Shown one piece after another: positions 712 to 28,407 of a stretch of DNA of 29,377 nt. The stretch covers positions 1-29,377 of the IMG/VR virus record IMGVR_UViG_3300042453_001774, one strand, 5' to 3'. The position numbers and the translations under genes are program-made. The stretch's first letter is position 1. Each line of letters starts with the position of its first letter. The notes below the pieces were generated by a model. It made no database searches. It was not told where the DNA came from and saw only the letters and a list, made by a program, of their open reading frames with translations. This stretch comes from a virus.

Positions 712-2106
712 TCAGTTAGTGTTACCGTGTAGATTTAGTACGCGGAAAATACGATAGTATTGGTTAAGATTTGCACTTAAAGCTTCTCCATCTGAAGTAC
801 CAGAACCATTGAGTACGAATGGATTAGCAACCATGCCGTAGCGGGTCTTGAATCCAATCTTGGGCTGGAATGTGTCGGGATCGACTGCACGGACCATCTG
901 GAGAGGGACATAGGGGCAGTAGAACAAGCCAGCATCGTATGGGCTTGAACCACGATATCCTACGCAAACAAAGTCTACACCAGACTGAACATAGGGATCG
1001 ATATAAACGCGCATCTTTCCGTTGAGTACGCCAGCAAAGGTATTGCCAGTATCATCGACTTCAAGTTGAGTGTTTAGAGCTGGGCTAATGTTAAGGAATC
1101 CACCCATTGCGAGGGCTGAAGCAACATCTGATGAGCAGATGATGAAGTTACCCTTACCGCGACGAGTTTCCTTGGCGATTGCATTAGCTTCGCGTTCGAT
1201 CTGGAACATGAGGCCACGGAAGCGTTCAGCTGACCAACGACCATCAGAGTCAGATAGAAGGTCATATGCCCCTCCACCCTGTCCATTGCCCAATAGATCA
1301 GTCTGCTGTGCTCCTAGTTTAGAGACATGGTAGATACCACGAACAACTTCTCGATTAATTTCAGCAAGAATTTCAGTGCTGAGAATGTTAGCAAGTTCGG
1401 TTTCAGCATCAAGTCCGTGAACAGCCTTGAGGTCTTGAGCAAGTTCAGTCGTGTAATCGGCCTTTAGAGCGCGTGTCTTAGCCTGAACAGCAACCTTGTC
1501 AATAGTGAAGGCCATTTCACCGAACTGCTTTGCACCAGCACCTCCGAGCGATTCAGCTTCACCTACTAACATGCCCTTGAAGTTATCTCCAAAGAAGCTA
1601 GATGAGTTTCTAGTACCGCTGCTAACACCTGCAAAGAGAGTTAGACCGTAATCAGCAGAACCTCCAAAGTAGCCCTGATATCCGCTTAAAGTGCCACCTG
1701 AACCACCGAATGGAACAAATGGTTCCTGATACATGGCTTCCTTACGGGGGGCGGTATCGTACTTGGGACGCATTGCGAAGATGAGTCCGGTTGGAGCGGT
1801 CATGGGCTGAACGCCGCAGATGTCATAAGCAATGAGGTTTGGCATTGCACGACGAACAAGGCTGATTAGGATTGGATCATAACCAGCGATGTTAGTTGAT
1901 GCCCCACCAAAAACATTGCTGATTGGTCCACCTAGGGTGTTGTCTTCAACAAGTCTTTGCTGACGCATTGCAGACTCTTGATTCTCAAGAAGAACTGCGG
2001 TTACTTTAGATTTGTAGCTATCTTCAATTGCAGGGAGTGCGCGGTGGCTTAAAACTGGCTCCCACTTCTCAGTTAAAATATCGTATGGTGTTGTATCTTC
2101 GAACAT
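712..2106 (-). CDS. 23: Major capsid protein gp23
   Basis: This is the precursor of the T4-type major head protein, which forms the hexamers of the prohead and is matured by the gp21 protease. The 464-residue length is a little shorter than T4 gp23 (521). Recognisable blocks are the N-terminal delta region with AVLLENQE, then LVRRAMPNLIAYDICGVQPM at about 83-102, TGLIFAMRPKY, and the conserved C-terminal fold. A prohead-protease type site, LVE|D, lies at residues 52-54, matching the T4 rule (I/L)-X-E and the place where the propeptide should end. AGGAG precedes the ATG, and an exact late promoter lies 19 bases upstream. G+C is clearly higher than in neighbouring genes, as expected for the most highly expressed virion gene. 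A strong terminator follows. Confidence 0.97.
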   Translation of the reverse strand: MFEDTTPYDILTEKWEPVLSHRALPAIEDSYKSKVTAVLLENQESAMRQQRLVEDNTLGGPISNVFGGASTNIAGYDPILISLVRRAMPNLIAYDICGVQPMTAPTGLIFAMRPKYDTAPRKEAMYQEPFVPFGGSGGTLSGYQGYFGGSADYGLTLFAGVSSGTRNSSSFFGDNFKGMLVGEAESLGGAGAKQFGEMAFTIDKVAVQAKTRALKADYTTELAQDLKAVHGLDAETELANILSTEILAEINREVVRGIYHVSKLGAQQTDLLGNGQGGGAYDLLSDSDGRWSAERFRGLMFQIEREANAIAKETRRGKGNFIICSSDVASALAMGGFLNISPALNTQLEVDDTGNTFAGVLNGKMRVYIDPYVQSGVDFVCVGYRGSSPYDAGLFYCPYVPLQMVRAVDPDTFQPKIGFKTRYGMVANPFVLNGSGTSDGEALSANLNQYYRIFRVLNLHGNTN

Positions 2107-7689: not shown

Positions 7690-8964
7690 TTATGTAGTAA
7701 AGCTCAATTCTACAAAATTTATACTTTGTGATGGTTTAATAAAAATATCAACAGTAAATTTTCTGTTTGTTATATCAACGATATTATTATTTGATGCATC
7801 ACAAACGACAGAAAATTCCTCAATACCTTCGTTTAATTTAATAGAAACCAGATATTGTTGTATTTTACTTTTTATAATATTTCGCAATTGTTCATCGTTT
7901 TGCTCAAATAATGCAGATGCCAATATCGATTTAATATTAGTTACGATATTAAATATTAAATTTGCATATGTAATACTTTGTTTTAATGGATTTGGGTCGT
8001 TTATAGCACCAGAAAAATCACTGTTAAAATAATATGCTATAATTCCACCATCACCTGAAATTTTTATAGGTAAATTAATTCCACGATCATAGATAACACT
8101 TAAATTATTTAAGTTTGATGGTGTATTAGGTATTATTTGTTCTACCTCTACATTATTTGAAGAAATAAAATTTTGATTTAAAATTTTTCCTCTTGAAAAA
8201 CCAGCAGGAGGCGACCAAGGAGATGTGATTAAACATCTAGAAAATACACCGATGGCATCGCTCATCAAAGGAACACAAGTATAATTTTTTGTATCTATTT
8301 GATCTTGTTCGTCTGTTCCTATATTTCTTGAAGAATAGTATCTTAATATTTTTTTAATTCCTGCACAGCTATATGTTAAATAGGAAAAATTATTAGTAAT
8401 AAAATTTCTTAAATATAAATCTGAAATATTAATAATAGGTATTCTATTATATTCTGTATAACTGGTTTCGTATACTGTATTATTTAATCTAGTACAGTTA
8501 AGAATTAATGGTATTTTATTATTTTCTATTAAAGTTTTTAAATAATTACTTATTGTAAGCTTTAAAGGATCATATGCTAATAATTTGATATTTCTTTCGT
8601 TTAAAGCGTATTGTATATTAGATTCTGATGTAGGGGATGAACAATTAACCAATATGACATTATGGCCATAATGTAATTGATCTAATATTAAATGATTATA
8701 TAAATCAATTTTTCTAGAAATATCCCCTCTATCAGGTATTTTCATAAAATTTAAAAAATCTTCAAATTTAGATATAGAAGAATCTAAAAATGTATAATTT
8801 GCATCTTTTATTAAAGATGTAATTTTATCAAAAGAGTCTATAACAAAATACTTTTCAGATGTTAATTTTAAAAATGTAAAATAATCAGAATCGTAGATTA
8901 AAAGAGCAACATCTACATTCTTTTTTGACTCTATTGTATTAAATTGAAATGAAATATCATCCAT
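7690..8964 (-). CDS. Second tail sheath-like protein (gp18 paralogue, diverged)
   Basis: A 424-residue protein whose C-terminal half is sheath-like. SDAIGVFSRC and PWSPPAGFSRG (249-259) line up with DAAGCIARTD and PWYAPAGTVRG of the neighbouring sheath protein. ASALFEQNDEQLR matches SNALFELNDAETR. EEFSVVCDASNN...VDIFIKPSQSINFVELSF matches YSIICDETNN...VDLSFKPVFSVNEVSF. The N-terminal half (about 1-200) is unlike the other copy and has no match I recognise. The C-terminal handshake arm needed for sheath polymerisation is present. It may form part of the sheath, a special ring at one end, or a decoration; function is inferred only. Its start overlaps the stop of the first sheath gene. Confidence 0.75.
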   Translation of the reverse strand: MDDISFQFNTIESKKNVDVALLIYDSDYFTFLKLTSEKYFVIDSFDKITSLIKDANYTFLDSSISKFEDFLNFMKIPDRGDISRKIDLYNHLILDQLHYGHNVILVNCSSPTSESNIQYALNERNIKLLAYDPLKLTISNYLKTLIENNKIPLILNCTRLNNTVYETSYTEYNRIPIINISDLYLRNFITNNFSYLTYSCAGIKKILRYYSSRNIGTDEQDQIDTKNYTCVPLMSDAIGVFSRCLITSPWSPPAGFSRGKILNQNFISSNNVEVEQIIPNTPSNLNNLSVIYDRGINLPIKISGDGGIIAYYFNSDFSGAINDPNPLKQSITYANLIFNIVTNIKSILASALFEQNDEQLRNIIKSKIQQYLVSIKLNEGIEEFSVVCDASNNNIVDITNRKFTVDIFIKPSQSINFVELSFTT

Positions 8965-10142
8965 TAAGATTGATTAATAACAAATCTAAACGAAACTTCA
9001 TTTACAGAGAATACTGGTTTAAACGATAAATCCACCACTATTTGTCTTGCTTCTTGTACTACTAATGTATTATTTGTTTCATCACATATTATTGAATATG
9101 AAGAAACTCCTCTTCCAGATTTAATAAATTCCATGACTGCTGTAGAAGATGTTACTATTTTAGATCTTGTTTCCGCATCATTAAGCTCAAATAGAGCATT
9201 AGAAATTATAGGTTTAAATGCCCTACCAATATAATTTACTAATCTTGTAATTCCAAGTTGAGTTTTATTTGATGAAGATGTAGTTTCGCATGTTTTATCA
9301 CCTAAAAGATAAGCACCATCTAAACCAACAATATTGTTAAAAGCATTGACTGATTGGGTTTGTAGAGTGGTTATATCATTATCATCGAGTGCTGGAATTA
9401 ATTTAGTAAAACTATTAATTTGACCACGAACTGTTCCAGCTGGAGCATACCACGGATAATATTCTGAATCTGTTCTAGCAATGCATCCGGCAGCATCTGA
9501 TGTCATTAGTATTCTAATATTAGCTGTTTCTCCACCGTACAATCTATTTCTTTCTTTTCTTCCTAGAACAGAAAATATCTGATTGTCAAAAGTACTTCCA
9601 GCAATACCAGTAAGCTGTAAAATACCAAATCCACCACCAGAATAAGTAGTTGGATAATCACCATCACTACCATTTCTATATTCAAAAGAAGAGCCTACAA
9701 TACCAATAACATCTTCAAAAATATTAACAAAGGCTATAACATCAAGAAATTTTTCTCTTCTTTCATAAAAAGCAGAGTCAAATTGTATATTTACAGATCC
9801 GAGTTGTGTTGCTCCAGTTGCAGCAATTAAAATTCCTCCATATTCAAGATAATTTAAAGCTGAATGTAATTCTCTGTCTAGAGTAGTACCACCACTAAAT
9901 CCCTTTTCTAATGTTGAATTAGCAAGTCCGCTAGAAGTTCCAGCAAGAACGGAAATATCAAATTCTGATATTAATTCTTGTGGAGTATTATATTGTTTAA
10001 AAACTGGTACTGGGTTTTCATTTTGTACTAGTTTATTATAAAATGTTTCTCCACAAAAAAATACAGAAATATGCGAAGATGCTTGAGATGCTATTGTATT
10101 AATTAAATTTGCTGAATTTTCTGTTATATTAATTTGTGGCAT
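8964..10142 (-). CDS. 18: Tail sheath protein gp18 (short form)
   Basis: This is the contractile sheath subunit. The C-terminal sheath signature is clear: ANIRILMTSDAAGCIARTD (208-225), PWYAPAGTVRG (230-240), ISNALFELNDAETR, and the final strand VDLSFKPVFSVNEVSFRFVI that swaps between subunits. An earlier LIAATGATQLG strand is also typical. The 392 residues are far fewer than T4 gp18 (659), so the variable outer domains of T4 gp18 are largely missing and this is close to a minimal sheath core. It lies directly after the terminase gene, as in T4. An AGGAA SD precedes the ATG. Being closer to the family consensus than the downstream paralogue, it is probably the main sheath protein. Confidence 0.88.
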   Translation of the reverse strand: MPQINITENSANLINTIASQASSHISVFFCGETFYNKLVQNENPVPVFKQYNTPQELISEFDISVLAGTSSGLANSTLEKGFSGGTTLDRELHSALNYLEYGGILIAATGATQLGSVNIQFDSAFYERREKFLDVIAFVNIFEDVIGIVGSSFEYRNGSDGDYPTTYSGGGFGILQLTGIAGSTFDNQIFSVLGRKERNRLYGGETANIRILMTSDAAGCIARTDSEYYPWYAPAGTVRGQINSFTKLIPALDDNDITTLQTQSVNAFNNIVGLDGAYLLGDKTCETTSSSNKTQLGITRLVNYIGRAFKPIISNALFELNDAETRSKIVTSSTAVMEFIKSGRGVSSYSIICDETNNTLVVQEARQIVVDLSFKPVFSVNEVSFRFVINQS

Positions 10143-25801: not shown

Positions 25802-25809
25802 TATTTACA
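25802..25809 (-). promoter_or_regulatory. Late promoter variant at the divergent junction
   Basis: TGTAAATA on the minus strand (7 of 8 matches to TATAAATA) lies 18 bases before the gp48-like ATG, much like the 19 bases at gene 23. The 25-base gap between the divergent genes holds little else, only A/T tracts. On the plus strand I see no TATAAATA before gene 4. Confidence 0.45.
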
Positions 25810-26237
25810 TGGCATATAAGACAAAATTTACTCCACAAAACATAAAAAAATATGTTGGTAATTTGGATAAAATTTTTTGCAAATCTTTGTGGGAAAGAAA
25901 ATTATGCAAGTATTTTGATTCACAAGAAAATATAATTAAGTGGTGTTACGAATGTATAAAAATACCTTACATATCTCCTGTTGATAATAAAAAACACAAT
26001 TACTATCCTGATTTTTTAGTTCTTCTTAAAGAAAAAAATGGAAAAGAAAAAACTTTAATTGTTGAAGTAAAACCAGAAAAACAAACAGAAGCTCCAAAAA
26101 ATATTAAAACTAAATCATATAAAAATGAAATGAAAACATTTTTAGTAAATGATGCTAAATGGAAAGCAGCTAAAAATCTTTGCGAGAATAACAGTTGGAA
26201 TTTTAAAATACTAACAGAAAAAAATTTATTCAGATGA
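25809..26237 (+). CDS. 4: Head completion protein gp4
   Basis: This is the T4-type head completion protein (also called gp50/gp65), added to filled heads before tail joining. It has 142 residues (T4 gp4 has 150). It starts KTKFTPQNIKKYVGNLDKIF with CKSLWERKLCKYFD. A PD-(D/E)XK nuclease-like core is visible: Glu29 in SLWER, Asp68 in YYPDFLV, and Glu86-x-Lys88 in IVEVKP. This resembles the TnsA-like fold seen in gp4 relatives. In the family it is thought to process or protect the DNA end at the portal; whether it still cuts is unknown. It is the first gene of the plus-strand block and overlaps the next start (ATGA). Confidence 0.88.
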   Translation: MAYKTKFTPQNIKKYVGNLDKIFCKSLWERKLCKYFDSQENIIKWCYECIKIPYISPVDNKKHNYYPDFLVLLKEKNGKEKTLIVEVKPEKQTEAPKNIKTKSYKNEMKTFLVNDAKWKAAKNLCENNSWNFKILTEKNLFR

Positions 26238-26869
26238 GCAATTCTATAGACACAATTAGATCATTAATAATAAATTCTGGAGGAATTCAAAGATCCAATA
26301 GATTTAATGTCATTGTATATACTCCTAGTGGAACAAATACAATGACTGCATTGGAAGTATCATTTGGCGGAAGACAAATAGATGTTGTTACGGATAGAAT
26401 TGGTAGTACAGGATTGGGGAGAAGTATACCAATTGCACAATCGTATAATGATACTGGATTTTCACGGTCAATTACCCAATATCAATCAAATCTTCTTATA
26501 ACATTTCCAATAGAACAAAATTGGTCAACATATTCTAAAATAGAAAATTGGATGAATCTTATAGTACAAGATGGATTAATACCATTTCCAAATTCTAGTA
26601 TTTCATTTGCTAGATCATATAACGATTATGCAAGACCTGGATTAGTAGAAGTAGAATGTTTAGATATGAATGGGAATGCTAGAGGGCTATTTACATTTAG
26701 AGAAGCATATCCTATAAAATTAAATCCAATCACAATGAGTGCTAAAACAGGAGAACCAGCAAAGTTTGATGTATTTTTTGTTTTTAGATCATATGAATTT
26801 ACAATACCAACTGGAGTTGGTATTAACGCGCAACAATCCCCAGCACTTCAAACACAGCCCGAATTTTAA
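26234..26869 (+). CDS. 54: Baseplate tail tube initiator, gp54-like
   Basis: A 211-residue tube-fold protein. IQRSNRFNVIVYTPSG is the first strand. ALEVSFGGRQIDVVTDRIG is followed by IPIAQSYNDTGFSRSITQYQ and SNLLITFPIEQNWSTYSKIE with NWMNLIV. This last block matches T4 gp54 (LVISFRMD...YRAMQDWVNSV). The end LFTFREAYPIKLNPITMSA leading to FDVFFVFRSYEF parallels gp54 (CIPISVSSPELSYD, TFDVTFAYRVM). T4 gp54 is longer (320). It would polymerise on the gp48-like cap and start the tube. Unlike in T4, it lies apart from the cap gene and on the opposite strand. It could instead be another tube-fold baseplate protein such as a gp3-like one. Confidence 0.7.
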   Translation: MSNSIDTIRSLIINSGGIQRSNRFNVIVYTPSGTNTMTALEVSFGGRQIDVVTDRIGSTGLGRSIPIAQSYNDTGFSRSITQYQSNLLITFPIEQNWSTYSKIENWMNLIVQDGLIPFPNSSISFARSYNDYARPGLVEVECLDMNGNARGLFTFREAYPIKLNPITMSAKTGEPAKFDVFFVFRSYEFTIPTGVGINAQQSPALQTQPEF

Positions 26870-26895: not shown

Positions 26896-27582
26896 ATGAA
26901 ATTTCAAAGATCATATCCAAAGTATCAAACCGTTTTACCTTCAACTGGAGAAAAAATTTATTTTAGACCATTTTTAGTCTCTGATGAAAAATCTTTATTA
27001 ATTATAAAAGAAGAAAAAAATTCATCTCTGATAATTAAAAATGTTTTAGAATTGATTGAAAAATGTTTTGATGGTATTAATAAAGAAAAAATAACATTAC
27101 AAGATATGGAATATCTTTTTTGTTCACTCAGATCAAAATCAATAGGTGAAATTGTAAAAACTAATTTTACATGTCCTATAACACAAGAAAAAATTAGAAC
27201 TAGTTTAGATTTATCTAATTTATTTTTAAAAGAGGGTAAAACATCCTTCGAATTGCAATTAGATGATAATTTAAAAATAAAATTTGAATCTCCAACTATA
27301 GTTAAAATACTTTTAATAGATGGAAAATTTGATATGGATCATTTTATAAAATGTTCGATATCACAAATTCAAAAAGAACATTCAATTTATAACTTTGAAG
27401 ATTTGAGTAGTTCTGATATAGAAGAAATTTTTTCTTTATTTACTAAAAAAGAATACAATGAAATAAAAAAATTTATTAATGATTTACCTAAAGTTTGTGC
27501 AGATGTAAAATACATCACAGCAGATGGAGTAGAAAGAACACTCAGATTGGACGGAGTACTTAATTTTTTTACTTTAATTTAA
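26896..27582 (+). CDS. 26: Baseplate hub assembly protein gp26 (zero-frame product)
   Basis: A 228-residue protein matching T4-like gp26: YPKYQTVLPSTGEKIYFRPF with LVSDEKSLL (cyanophage: LPSTGK..KFRPFLV.EEK.LL), then VLELIEKCFDGINKEKITLQ and DMEYLFCSLRSKSIGEIV. gp26 is needed for hub assembly in T4 and is thought to be a chaperone that does not stay in the virion. The C-terminus is helical with a final VKYITADGVERTLRLDGVLN strand. The reading frame ends with LNFFTLI, and the two Phe codons before it form part of a T_TTT_TTT slippery heptamer at 27564-27570. A fraction of ribosomes shifting -1 there would produce a 287-residue fusion with the gp51-like ORF. No strong SD is seen upstream of the ATG. 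Confidence 0.88.
   Translation: MKFQRSYPKYQTVLPSTGEKIYFRPFLVSDEKSLLIIKEEKNSSLIIKNVLELIEKCFDGINKEKITLQDMEYLFCSLRSKSIGEIVKTNFTCPITQEKIRTSLDLSNLFLKEGKTSFELQLDDNLKIKFESPTIVKILLIDGKFDMDHFIKCSISQIQKEHSIYNFEDLSSSDIEEIFSLFTKKEYNEIKKFINDLPKVCADVKYITADGVERTLRLDGVLNFFTLI
27564..27570 (+). other. Candidate -1 programmed frameshift site (T_TTT_TTT) in gene 26
   Basis: In the gp26 frame the codons AAT TTT TTT ACT give a perfect X_XXY_YYZ heptamer with X, Y and Z all T, four codons before the stop at 27580-27582. The -1 frame has a TAA at 27561-27563, immediately before the heptamer, and is open from 27564 to the TAA at 27756-27758, passing straight into the gp51-like ORF. A weak 6-bp stem (TAAATC 27580-27585 with GATTTA 27591-27596, 5-base loop) starts nine bases after the heptamer. 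The shifted product would have 225 zero-frame and 62 shifted residues. Confidence 0.6.
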
Positions 27583-27611
27583 ATCATATAGATTTATTAG
27601 TTTATTACAAG

Positions 27612-27758
27612 ATGAATTTCTTTTTATGTTCTAATAAAATTCTTTCTGTAGATGAACTTGAAAGTATGTTTCCGTGGGAAAGAGATATTTATTTCAATCA
27701 GTATAAAAATAAATTAGAAGAGGACGCAGAAAATGCCAGAAACAGAAATGTTTTCTAA
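27612..27758 (+). CDS. 51: gp51-like short ORF; probable C-terminal extension of gp26 by frameshift
   Basis: A 48-residue ORF (MNFFLCSNKILSVDELESMF, then PWERDIYFNQYKN, then a charged end). The SVDELESMFPWERDIY pattern resembles the short proteins that follow gp26 in T4-like phages. In T4 gene 51 follows gene 26 and encodes a hub assembly catalyst. There is no SD before its ATG, and its frame is open 16 codons further upstream to the slippery run in gene 26. It is therefore likely expressed as a 62-residue extension of gp26 rather than alone. The short-helix and acidic layout recalls the second part of lambda-type GT chaperones. It overlaps the next gene by 26 bases. Confidence 0.65.
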   Translation: MNFFLCSNKILSVDELESMFPWERDIYFNQYKNKLEEDAENARNRNVF

Positions 27759-28407
27759 CGAAGAAGAAACACCAAAAGATAATCGTTCTACTGAAATGAT
27801 GGATGAAAAAAAAGAAGTTTTTTCATCGGCAAATTACTCTTCTATTATTGATGATGATGAAAAAAATTCATCTATCGAAATTGTTCAAGAAAAAGAATCA
27901 ATAACAATACCAGAAAAAAAAGATTCTTTACCAGAAGAAAATTCTAATCAAAGTACCGAAAAAGAAAAAAGTCCAGAAGGACCATCATCAGAAAATTTAA
28001 CAAACAAACAAACTCTTAAGCCAGTTAGTTTTCCGACAGATTCATTGACTCCAAACAATGAAAATGATATACCAGAGCAAAAACAAGCAGAAGAAAACTC
28101 TGAAAATTTTATGTTATCTGATGTGGTAAAAGATAATACAGAAGCAAATGAATTATCCACAATATTAAATGAAACACAAGCTTTAACTAATGTACAAAAA
28201 GATGTAATAATAGAAAGAATAGATTCTATAGAAAAGATGCAAACGGAATCTAGTGGTGTTTCTGATTTTGATACACGATTAAATACTATGGCAGGAACTG
28301 TTATGGATTTTGATGACGGTGGTATAATAGATGTAAATAGCGGCCATATTTCTGATTTAAAATATTTTATGGATGAAATAAAAAGTCCTCCTGAGTGGAG
28401 GACTTAA
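27733..28407 (+). CDS. Acidic, low-complexity protein of unknown function
   Basis: A 224-residue protein, very rich in Glu, Ser, Asn, Asp and Lys through about residue 140 and probably disordered. The remainder (about 140-224) looks more ordered: TEANELSTILNETQALTNVQ, then a DVIIERIDSIEKMQ helix, and a MDFDDGGIIDVNSGHISDLK segment ending in KSPPEWRT. I recognise no family. It starts inside the gp51-like ORF with GAGG nine bases before the ATG, so it is the last gene of the plus-strand block. Position after gp26/gp51 suggests a tail-assembly or scaffold-type role, but there is no direct support. The 3' end doubles as the gene 32 terminator, and its last codons may be constrained by that. Confidence 0.65.
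   Translation: MPETEMFSNEEETPKDNRSTEMMDEKKEVFSSANYSSIIDDDEKNSSIEIVQEKESITIPEKKDSLPEENSNQSTEKEKSPEGPSSENLTNKQTLKPVSFPTDSLTPNNENDIPEQKQAEENSENFMLSDVVKDNTEANELSTILNETQALTNVQKDVIIERIDSIEKMQTESSGVSDFDTRLNTMAGTVMDFDDGGIIDVNSGHISDLKYFMDEIKSPPEWRT
28374..28405 (-). terminator. Intrinsic terminator of gene 32, inside the convergent ORF
   Basis: An 8-bp stem (AAGTCCTC 28383-28390 with GAGGACTT 28398-28405, 7-base loop) is followed on the minus strand by TTTATTTC, continuing the TT of the stem to make a TTTTT run. It is well placed to end the gene 32 transcript about 25 bases after its stop. It encodes the last residues of the acidic protein on the other strand. Confidence 0.85.

Follow-up and report, generated by a model that had tools for sequence, protein, structure and literature searches.

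Phages lambda and P2 each use a −1 frameshift near the end of a gene in the tail cluster to make two versions, short and long, of a tail assembly chaperone (G/GT and E/E', respectively), and the lambda slip site is GGGAAAG. In Escherichia coli dnaX, the slippery heptamer A_AAA_AAG is preceded by a Shine–Dalgarno (SD)-like element and followed by a hairpin, and the shift shortens the product. Poly-T slip sites are also on record. The tail assembly chaperone (TAC) gene of the Vandenendeviridae and Andersonviridae (phage Adele) has a conserved −1 frameshift with the slip motif GTTTTT, and the Adele-type extension is annotated elsewhere as a separate hypothetical gene (PMC12846349). Closer to the present case, Vladimirov, Gautam and Davidson (2022, Virology 566:9–15) are cited for poly-T slippery sequences in the TAC-N genes of T4-like phages (PMC12846349), and for some T4-like phages having a short gene and a long fusion gene instead (PMC10885494). 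As that study is described in these two papers, a frameshift at the gene 26 locus appears already to have been reported for T4-like phages, and both its poly-T −1 signal and its two-gene alternative match what we describe below. In T4 itself, gp26 and gp51 are both classed as chaperones of hub assembly; gp51 is required for assembly and absent from the particle, and the presence of gp26 in the hub is disputed (PMC3004832).

The DNA analysed here (the window) is the 29,377-nucleotide IMG/VR record IMGVR_UViG_3300042453_001774, from a marine, T4-like phage of an uncultivated clade, and would be a further case of this kind. An IMG/VR scan found four contigs carrying the same sequence. The window gp26 is about 32% or less identical to the gp26 of isolates. 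The major capsid protein (712–2106, minus strand) is far closer to its relatives than gp26 is (about 30%), being 56–57% identical to those of T4-like phages of cyanobacteria, Pelagibacter and Methylophilales. The features discussed below are as follows.

26234–26869, plus strand: tail-tube-like gene directly upstream of gene 26 (PHROG 45, tail tube, E = 1e-13)
26896–27582, plus strand: gene 26, short form, 228 aa, T4_baseplate family, probable TAC-N (PF12322, PHROG 150, AlphaFold2 model)
27553–27556, plus strand: SD-like GGAG, candidate upstream stimulator, 7 nt before the heptamer (anti-SD duplex; GAG preference in relatives)
27564–27570, plus strand: slippery heptamer T_TTT_TTT (read directly, and from relatives)
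27564–27758, plus strand: −1 frame extension, gp51-like C-terminal part of the predicted long form (PHROG 634, alignment, dN/dS)
27580–27596, plus strand: weak AU-rich hairpin, candidate downstream stimulator (fold, relatives)
27612–27758, plus strand: 48-aa ORF, gp51 to gene finders, with no SD and a start codon that is not conserved

In a Pfam profile search gene 26 scores 148.6 bits against PF12322 (T4_baseplate; curated cut-off 24.5), and its product matches PHROG 150 (baseplate hub). A sequence-only reading of the window had proposed that gene 26 is joined by a −1 frameshift to the gp51-like extension. The elements on which it relied are present: the heptamer lies in the gene-26 phase (codon context AAT TTT TTT ACT TTA ATT TAA), the gene ends with a directly read TAA at 27580–27582, and the −1 frame, after a TAA at 27561–27563, is open from 27564 to a stop at 27756–27758. 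Taken alone, however, the window is weak evidence. It holds six in-phase T_TTT_TTY in 9544 codons; at one of its 31 gene ends, that of gene 26, the motif falls inside a −1 overlap. We estimate a chance of about 1 in 10 that some gene end in the window would show such a heptamer. The earlier caution that a T run can arise by chance is thus fair for the window by itself, but not against the universal heptamer of its relatives.

For the comparison with relatives, 202 unique gene-26 junctions were collected from IMG/VR scans and annotated isolates. Set apart from these were three T4-type loci with an in-frame gp51 (L250, L251 and L253), one locus whose gene-26 frame is broken upstream, probably by a contig error (L222), and the window's own locus, leaving 197 others. 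Every one of the 197 carries T_TTT_TT[C/T/G] in phase at the end of gene 26 (T_TTT_TTC in 172, T_TTT_TTT in 24 and T_TTT_TTG in one). They form 34 clusters at 60% identity and include isolates from nine host genera (Synechococcus, Sinorhizobium, Rhizobium, Desulfovibrio, Vibrio, Stenotrophomonas, Delftia, Aeromonas and Agrobacterium), the most divergent extension being that of Agrobacterium phage Atu_ph07 (490 kb). The gp51-type motif P[WFY]E is found in the −1 frame at 194 of the 202 junctions; the remainder are the T4-type loci, the broken locus, early-ending contigs and two Vibrio phages that have LFE instead. All 197 also have an open −1 frame, and in no intact relative of the frameshift type does a stop interrupt it on the way from the slip into the extension.

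Synonymous sites around the slip are constrained. The preceding codon ends in T throughout, yet codes for any of six residues (S, N, A, D, T and H), and TTT is invariably the codon for the first Phe at the slip. Judged by each gene's own codon usage, these regularities have P values of ∼1e-7 and ∼1e-9, respectively, which serve as guides since the clusters are partly dependent on each other. The comparative evidence for a slip site at this position is overwhelming, well beyond chance. Two of the comparisons that the sequence-only reading had proposed, of heptamer with open frame and of synonymous constraint, thus bore it out. One of its arguments was dropped: the −1 frame stop that immediately precedes the heptamer in the window is not conserved, and relatives have this frame open up to ∼120 nt farther upstream, so that the stop is not diagnostic.

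Homopolymers are prone to error, and the true gene could in principle be a single in-frame fusion, broken in the record by a sequencing or assembly indel. This explanation is already contradicted, and we regard it as scarcely credible: the arrangement is common to 197 unique junctions, isolate genomes included, the window's sequence recurs in four contigs, and stop codons differ in position and identity from lineage to lineage.

The −1 extension itself has the properties of translated sequence. Its translation matches PHROG 634 (‘baseplate hub assembly catalyst’, gp51) with E = 1.5e-14, and the match begins at the second residue, ahead of the ATG of the 48-aa ORF. The alignment of relatives likewise starts at the slip (FFxxxLxHxxLxxYYxxNFALMQHHKYSLTELENMxPWERxxY). 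Over the 14 codons preceding the window's ATG, dN/dS in the −1 frame is ∼0.14, with 94 synonymous and 43 replacement changes in 58 disjoint close pairs; in the other two frames the same codons show mostly replacements (21:90 and 18:95 synonymous to replacement). Since synonymous changes prevail in the −1 frame only, the stretch ahead of the ATG is predicted to be translated in that frame.

These data bear on the view, implied by public records in which gp51 is annotated as a separate gene, that translation of a small gp51 begins separately at the ATG at 27612, through re-initiation or translational coupling once gene 26 has ended, the T run being due to chance. The heptamer is universal among the junctions and there is protein-coding selection ahead of the ATG, neither of which favours an independent gene. 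The lack of an SD before this ATG, remarked on from the sequence alone, was confirmed in the window (anti-SD duplex +1.0 kcal/mol), and no Met is conserved in the extension across the aligned relatives. A general argument that start codons are missing proved only partly true: most lineages have an ATG, GTG or TTG within 24 codons, and for this reason early starts and SDs were counted instead. No ATG, GTG or TTG occurs in the first 14 codons in 18 of 34 lineages, and only five of the 34 have an SD ahead of any candidate start in the first 24 codons. In some lineages, Vibrio phages among them, an ATG does adjoin or overlap the gene-26 stop, and re-initiation there could add a free short product. 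Overall, the 48-aa ORF is probably not a separate gene, and we consider its independent expression very unlikely as an account of the locus.

None of the annotated frameshift-type records examined marks the shift as a joined gene, and in the cyanophage and other T4-like records covered here gp51 is either annotated separately or missed. In the published genomes of cyanophages S-MbCM6 (L255, 2514–2690) and S-H9-1 (L256, 2514–2688) the extension is unannotated and its stretch is left between genes.

Two kinds of candidate stimulator flank the heptamer, an arrangement resembling that of E. coli dnaX, although there the heptamer is A_AAA_AAG and the shift shortens the product, whereas the gene 26 shift would lengthen it. 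Upstream, the segment 27546–27563 forms an anti-SD duplex of −6.1 kcal/mol, stronger than three of the four SDs tested at neighbouring genes and on a par with the remaining one. The element has the form GGAG/GAGGG and lies 7–9 nt before the heptamer. Anti-SD affinity peaks near the slip and exceeds that of synonymous shuffles (p = 0.001 with 34 lineages, 1e-9 with 79). The codon for a conserved Glu five codons before the slip is GAG in 13 and GAA in four of the 34 lineages (p = 3e-4), and 50:12 in the set of 79, while the GAG share at other Glu codons is about 30–33%.

Downstream, the 6-bp stem noted nine bases past the heptamer in the sequence-only reading is present (TAAATC, 27580–27585, with GATTTA, 27591–27596), but it is weak (fold z −1.5) and varies by lineage. 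The close relative L006 has a 7-bp stem at the corresponding place. More generally, codons 3–40 downstream of the slip fold better than synonymous shuffles (mean z −2.4, against −0.4 to −0.8 for control windows within gene 26). A hairpin of 7–11 bp starting 5 nt after the heptamer occurs in 42 of 119 lineages, all of one cyanophage-like group. Among 43 lineages selected solely on the 5' arm of the hairpin, the stem persists and few of its pairs change, one of them occurring as T-A, G-C and A-T. A search for one downstream helix common to all lineages found none, the best six-pair helix being formed in 70% of cells. The upstream SD-like element, which the sequence-only reading had not mentioned, is better supported across lineages than the stem it noted. 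The SD-like element and the lineage-specific hairpins probably stimulate the shift; we know of no earlier description of either at the gene 26–51 locus.

The position of the SD-like element also bears on where slipping would take place. RNA polymerase might itself slip on a run of seven Ts, which would give mRNAs with added or missing U and an identical protein outcome. In 172 of the 197 relatives, however, the run is six Ts followed by C, and six Ts are a short run for polymerase slippage. The strict tandem codon phase, together with an SD-like element at a fixed distance, points to the ribosome rather than the polymerase, and we judge transcriptional slippage to be highly improbable.

A −1 ribosomal frameshift at the gene-26 T run, probably stimulated by the SD-like GGAG and hairpins and yielding a short and a long tail chaperone form, is in our judgement highly probable. 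By sequence, the predicted slip site is conserved, the −1 frame is protein-coding and the fusion is equivalent to T4 gp51; the occurrence and frequency of the slip, which form is the major one, what the stimulators do and how the chaperones work, we infer. Ribosomes translating gene 26 would arrive at AAT TTT TTT, where a fraction would slip back by one base as both Phe-tRNAs re-pair in the −1 frame. The GGAG, 7 nt upstream, would pair with the tail of 16S rRNA and probably stimulate the slip, and a downstream hairpin, 5–9 nt off, may assist in some lineages. Slipped ribosomes would carry on to 27758 and give, as the minor product, a long protein in which gp26 as far as LNFF is followed by YFNLNH..., the major product being the 228-aa short form that ends at 27582.

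The T4 proteins offer a key to the predicted fusion. When the virtual fusion is searched as a profile, its match covers positions 23–282 of 296 for T4 gp51 (60 bits) but only 11–236 for T4 gp26 (92 bits). A profile of the extension matches gp51 of T4 (24 bits), IME281 and avDM2 and the corresponding gene of Acinetobacter phage AbTZA1, and does not match gp26 of T4, IME281 or AbTZA1. T4 gp26 is thus like the short form and T4 gp51 like the whole predicted fusion, a further point against a separate small gp51, and T4 has two genes for what is read here as one frameshifting gene. In T4, IME281 and avDM2 these genes are separate and adjoin in divergent orientation. The sequence-only reading knew of no described frameshift at the T4 26–51 junction; this holds for T4, which has none, but not for T4-like phages, for which one is reported as summarized in PMC12846349 and PMC10885494. 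The frameshift layout is found in other Straboviridae (phage phiAS5 of Aeromonas and the schizotequatroviruses of Vibrio). Judged by this distribution rather than by a tree, the two-gene state would seem to be derived. The chances seem to us evenly balanced that the frameshift, driven by both stimulators, is ancestral to the whole T4 superfamily and that the T4 group replaced it through gene duplication and inversion, the long form becoming gene 51. Part of one phage lineage would then use two genes, 26 (short) and 51 (long), for the pair that its relatives make by frameshifting. What is added here is the breadth of occurrence, the test of T4 equivalence and the candidate stimulators, as the frameshift itself appears from the two citing papers to have been reported.

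As to function, the earlier suggestion that gp26 and gp51 are the T4-branch equivalent of G and GT gains support from T4 gp51, which corresponds in a single frame to the predicted fusion. As in lambda G/GT and P2 E/E', a short form and a C-terminally extended form with a common N-terminal domain are predicted by sequence (with T4 gp26/gp51 as counterpart), through a −1 shift near a gene end in a tail cluster, although lambda slips at GGGAAAG and gene 26 at T_TTT_TTT. The poly-T −1 shift of the Vandenendeviridae and Andersonviridae is like the one predicted for the window, in other phage families. A tail-tube-like gene lies directly upstream of gene 26, and in Caulobacter phage Cr30 an annotated tape measure gene follows soon downstream; no tape measure gene was recognised within the window. 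The AlphaFold2 model of gp26 (pLDDT 90) matches viral gp26 proteins widely in a structure search. Its similarity to the HK97 TAC (2ob9) is weak (E 1.4, TMt 0.38, 59 columns); the Foldseek probability of this match, 0.51, is the highest among the matches listed. Neither the Pfam TAC families nor, by sequence search, solved structures gave a match to gp26, and no plasmid homologues were found. We think it very likely that the short and long forms are a G/GT-type chaperone pair, this being the best reading, and most likely they would help, as chaperones, to assemble the tail and the baseplate hub. For T4 gp51, which is essential for assembly, this would supply a definite role, that of the longer member of such a pair.

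Several neighbouring genes of the window deserve mention. Upstream of the tail-tube-like gene, where relatives have a head completion/closure (gp4-like) gene, a 142-aa protein (25809–26237, plus strand) has a TnsA-like endonuclease N-terminal domain (PF08722, E 1e-23). A 224-aa ORF (27733–28407, plus strand) whose product is rich in the residues E, K, S and N overlaps the end of the gp51 extension; it has no Pfam or PHROG match, and its SD (−5.8 kcal/mol) is the best among those tested at four neighbouring starts. Farther away, two adjacent genes on the minus strand (7690–8964 and 8964–10142; 424 and 392 aa) are tail-sheath-like (PHROG 23), compared with the single sheath gene, 18, of T4; their C-terminal parts share 29% identity (BLASTP E 2e-15), an apparent tandem duplication.
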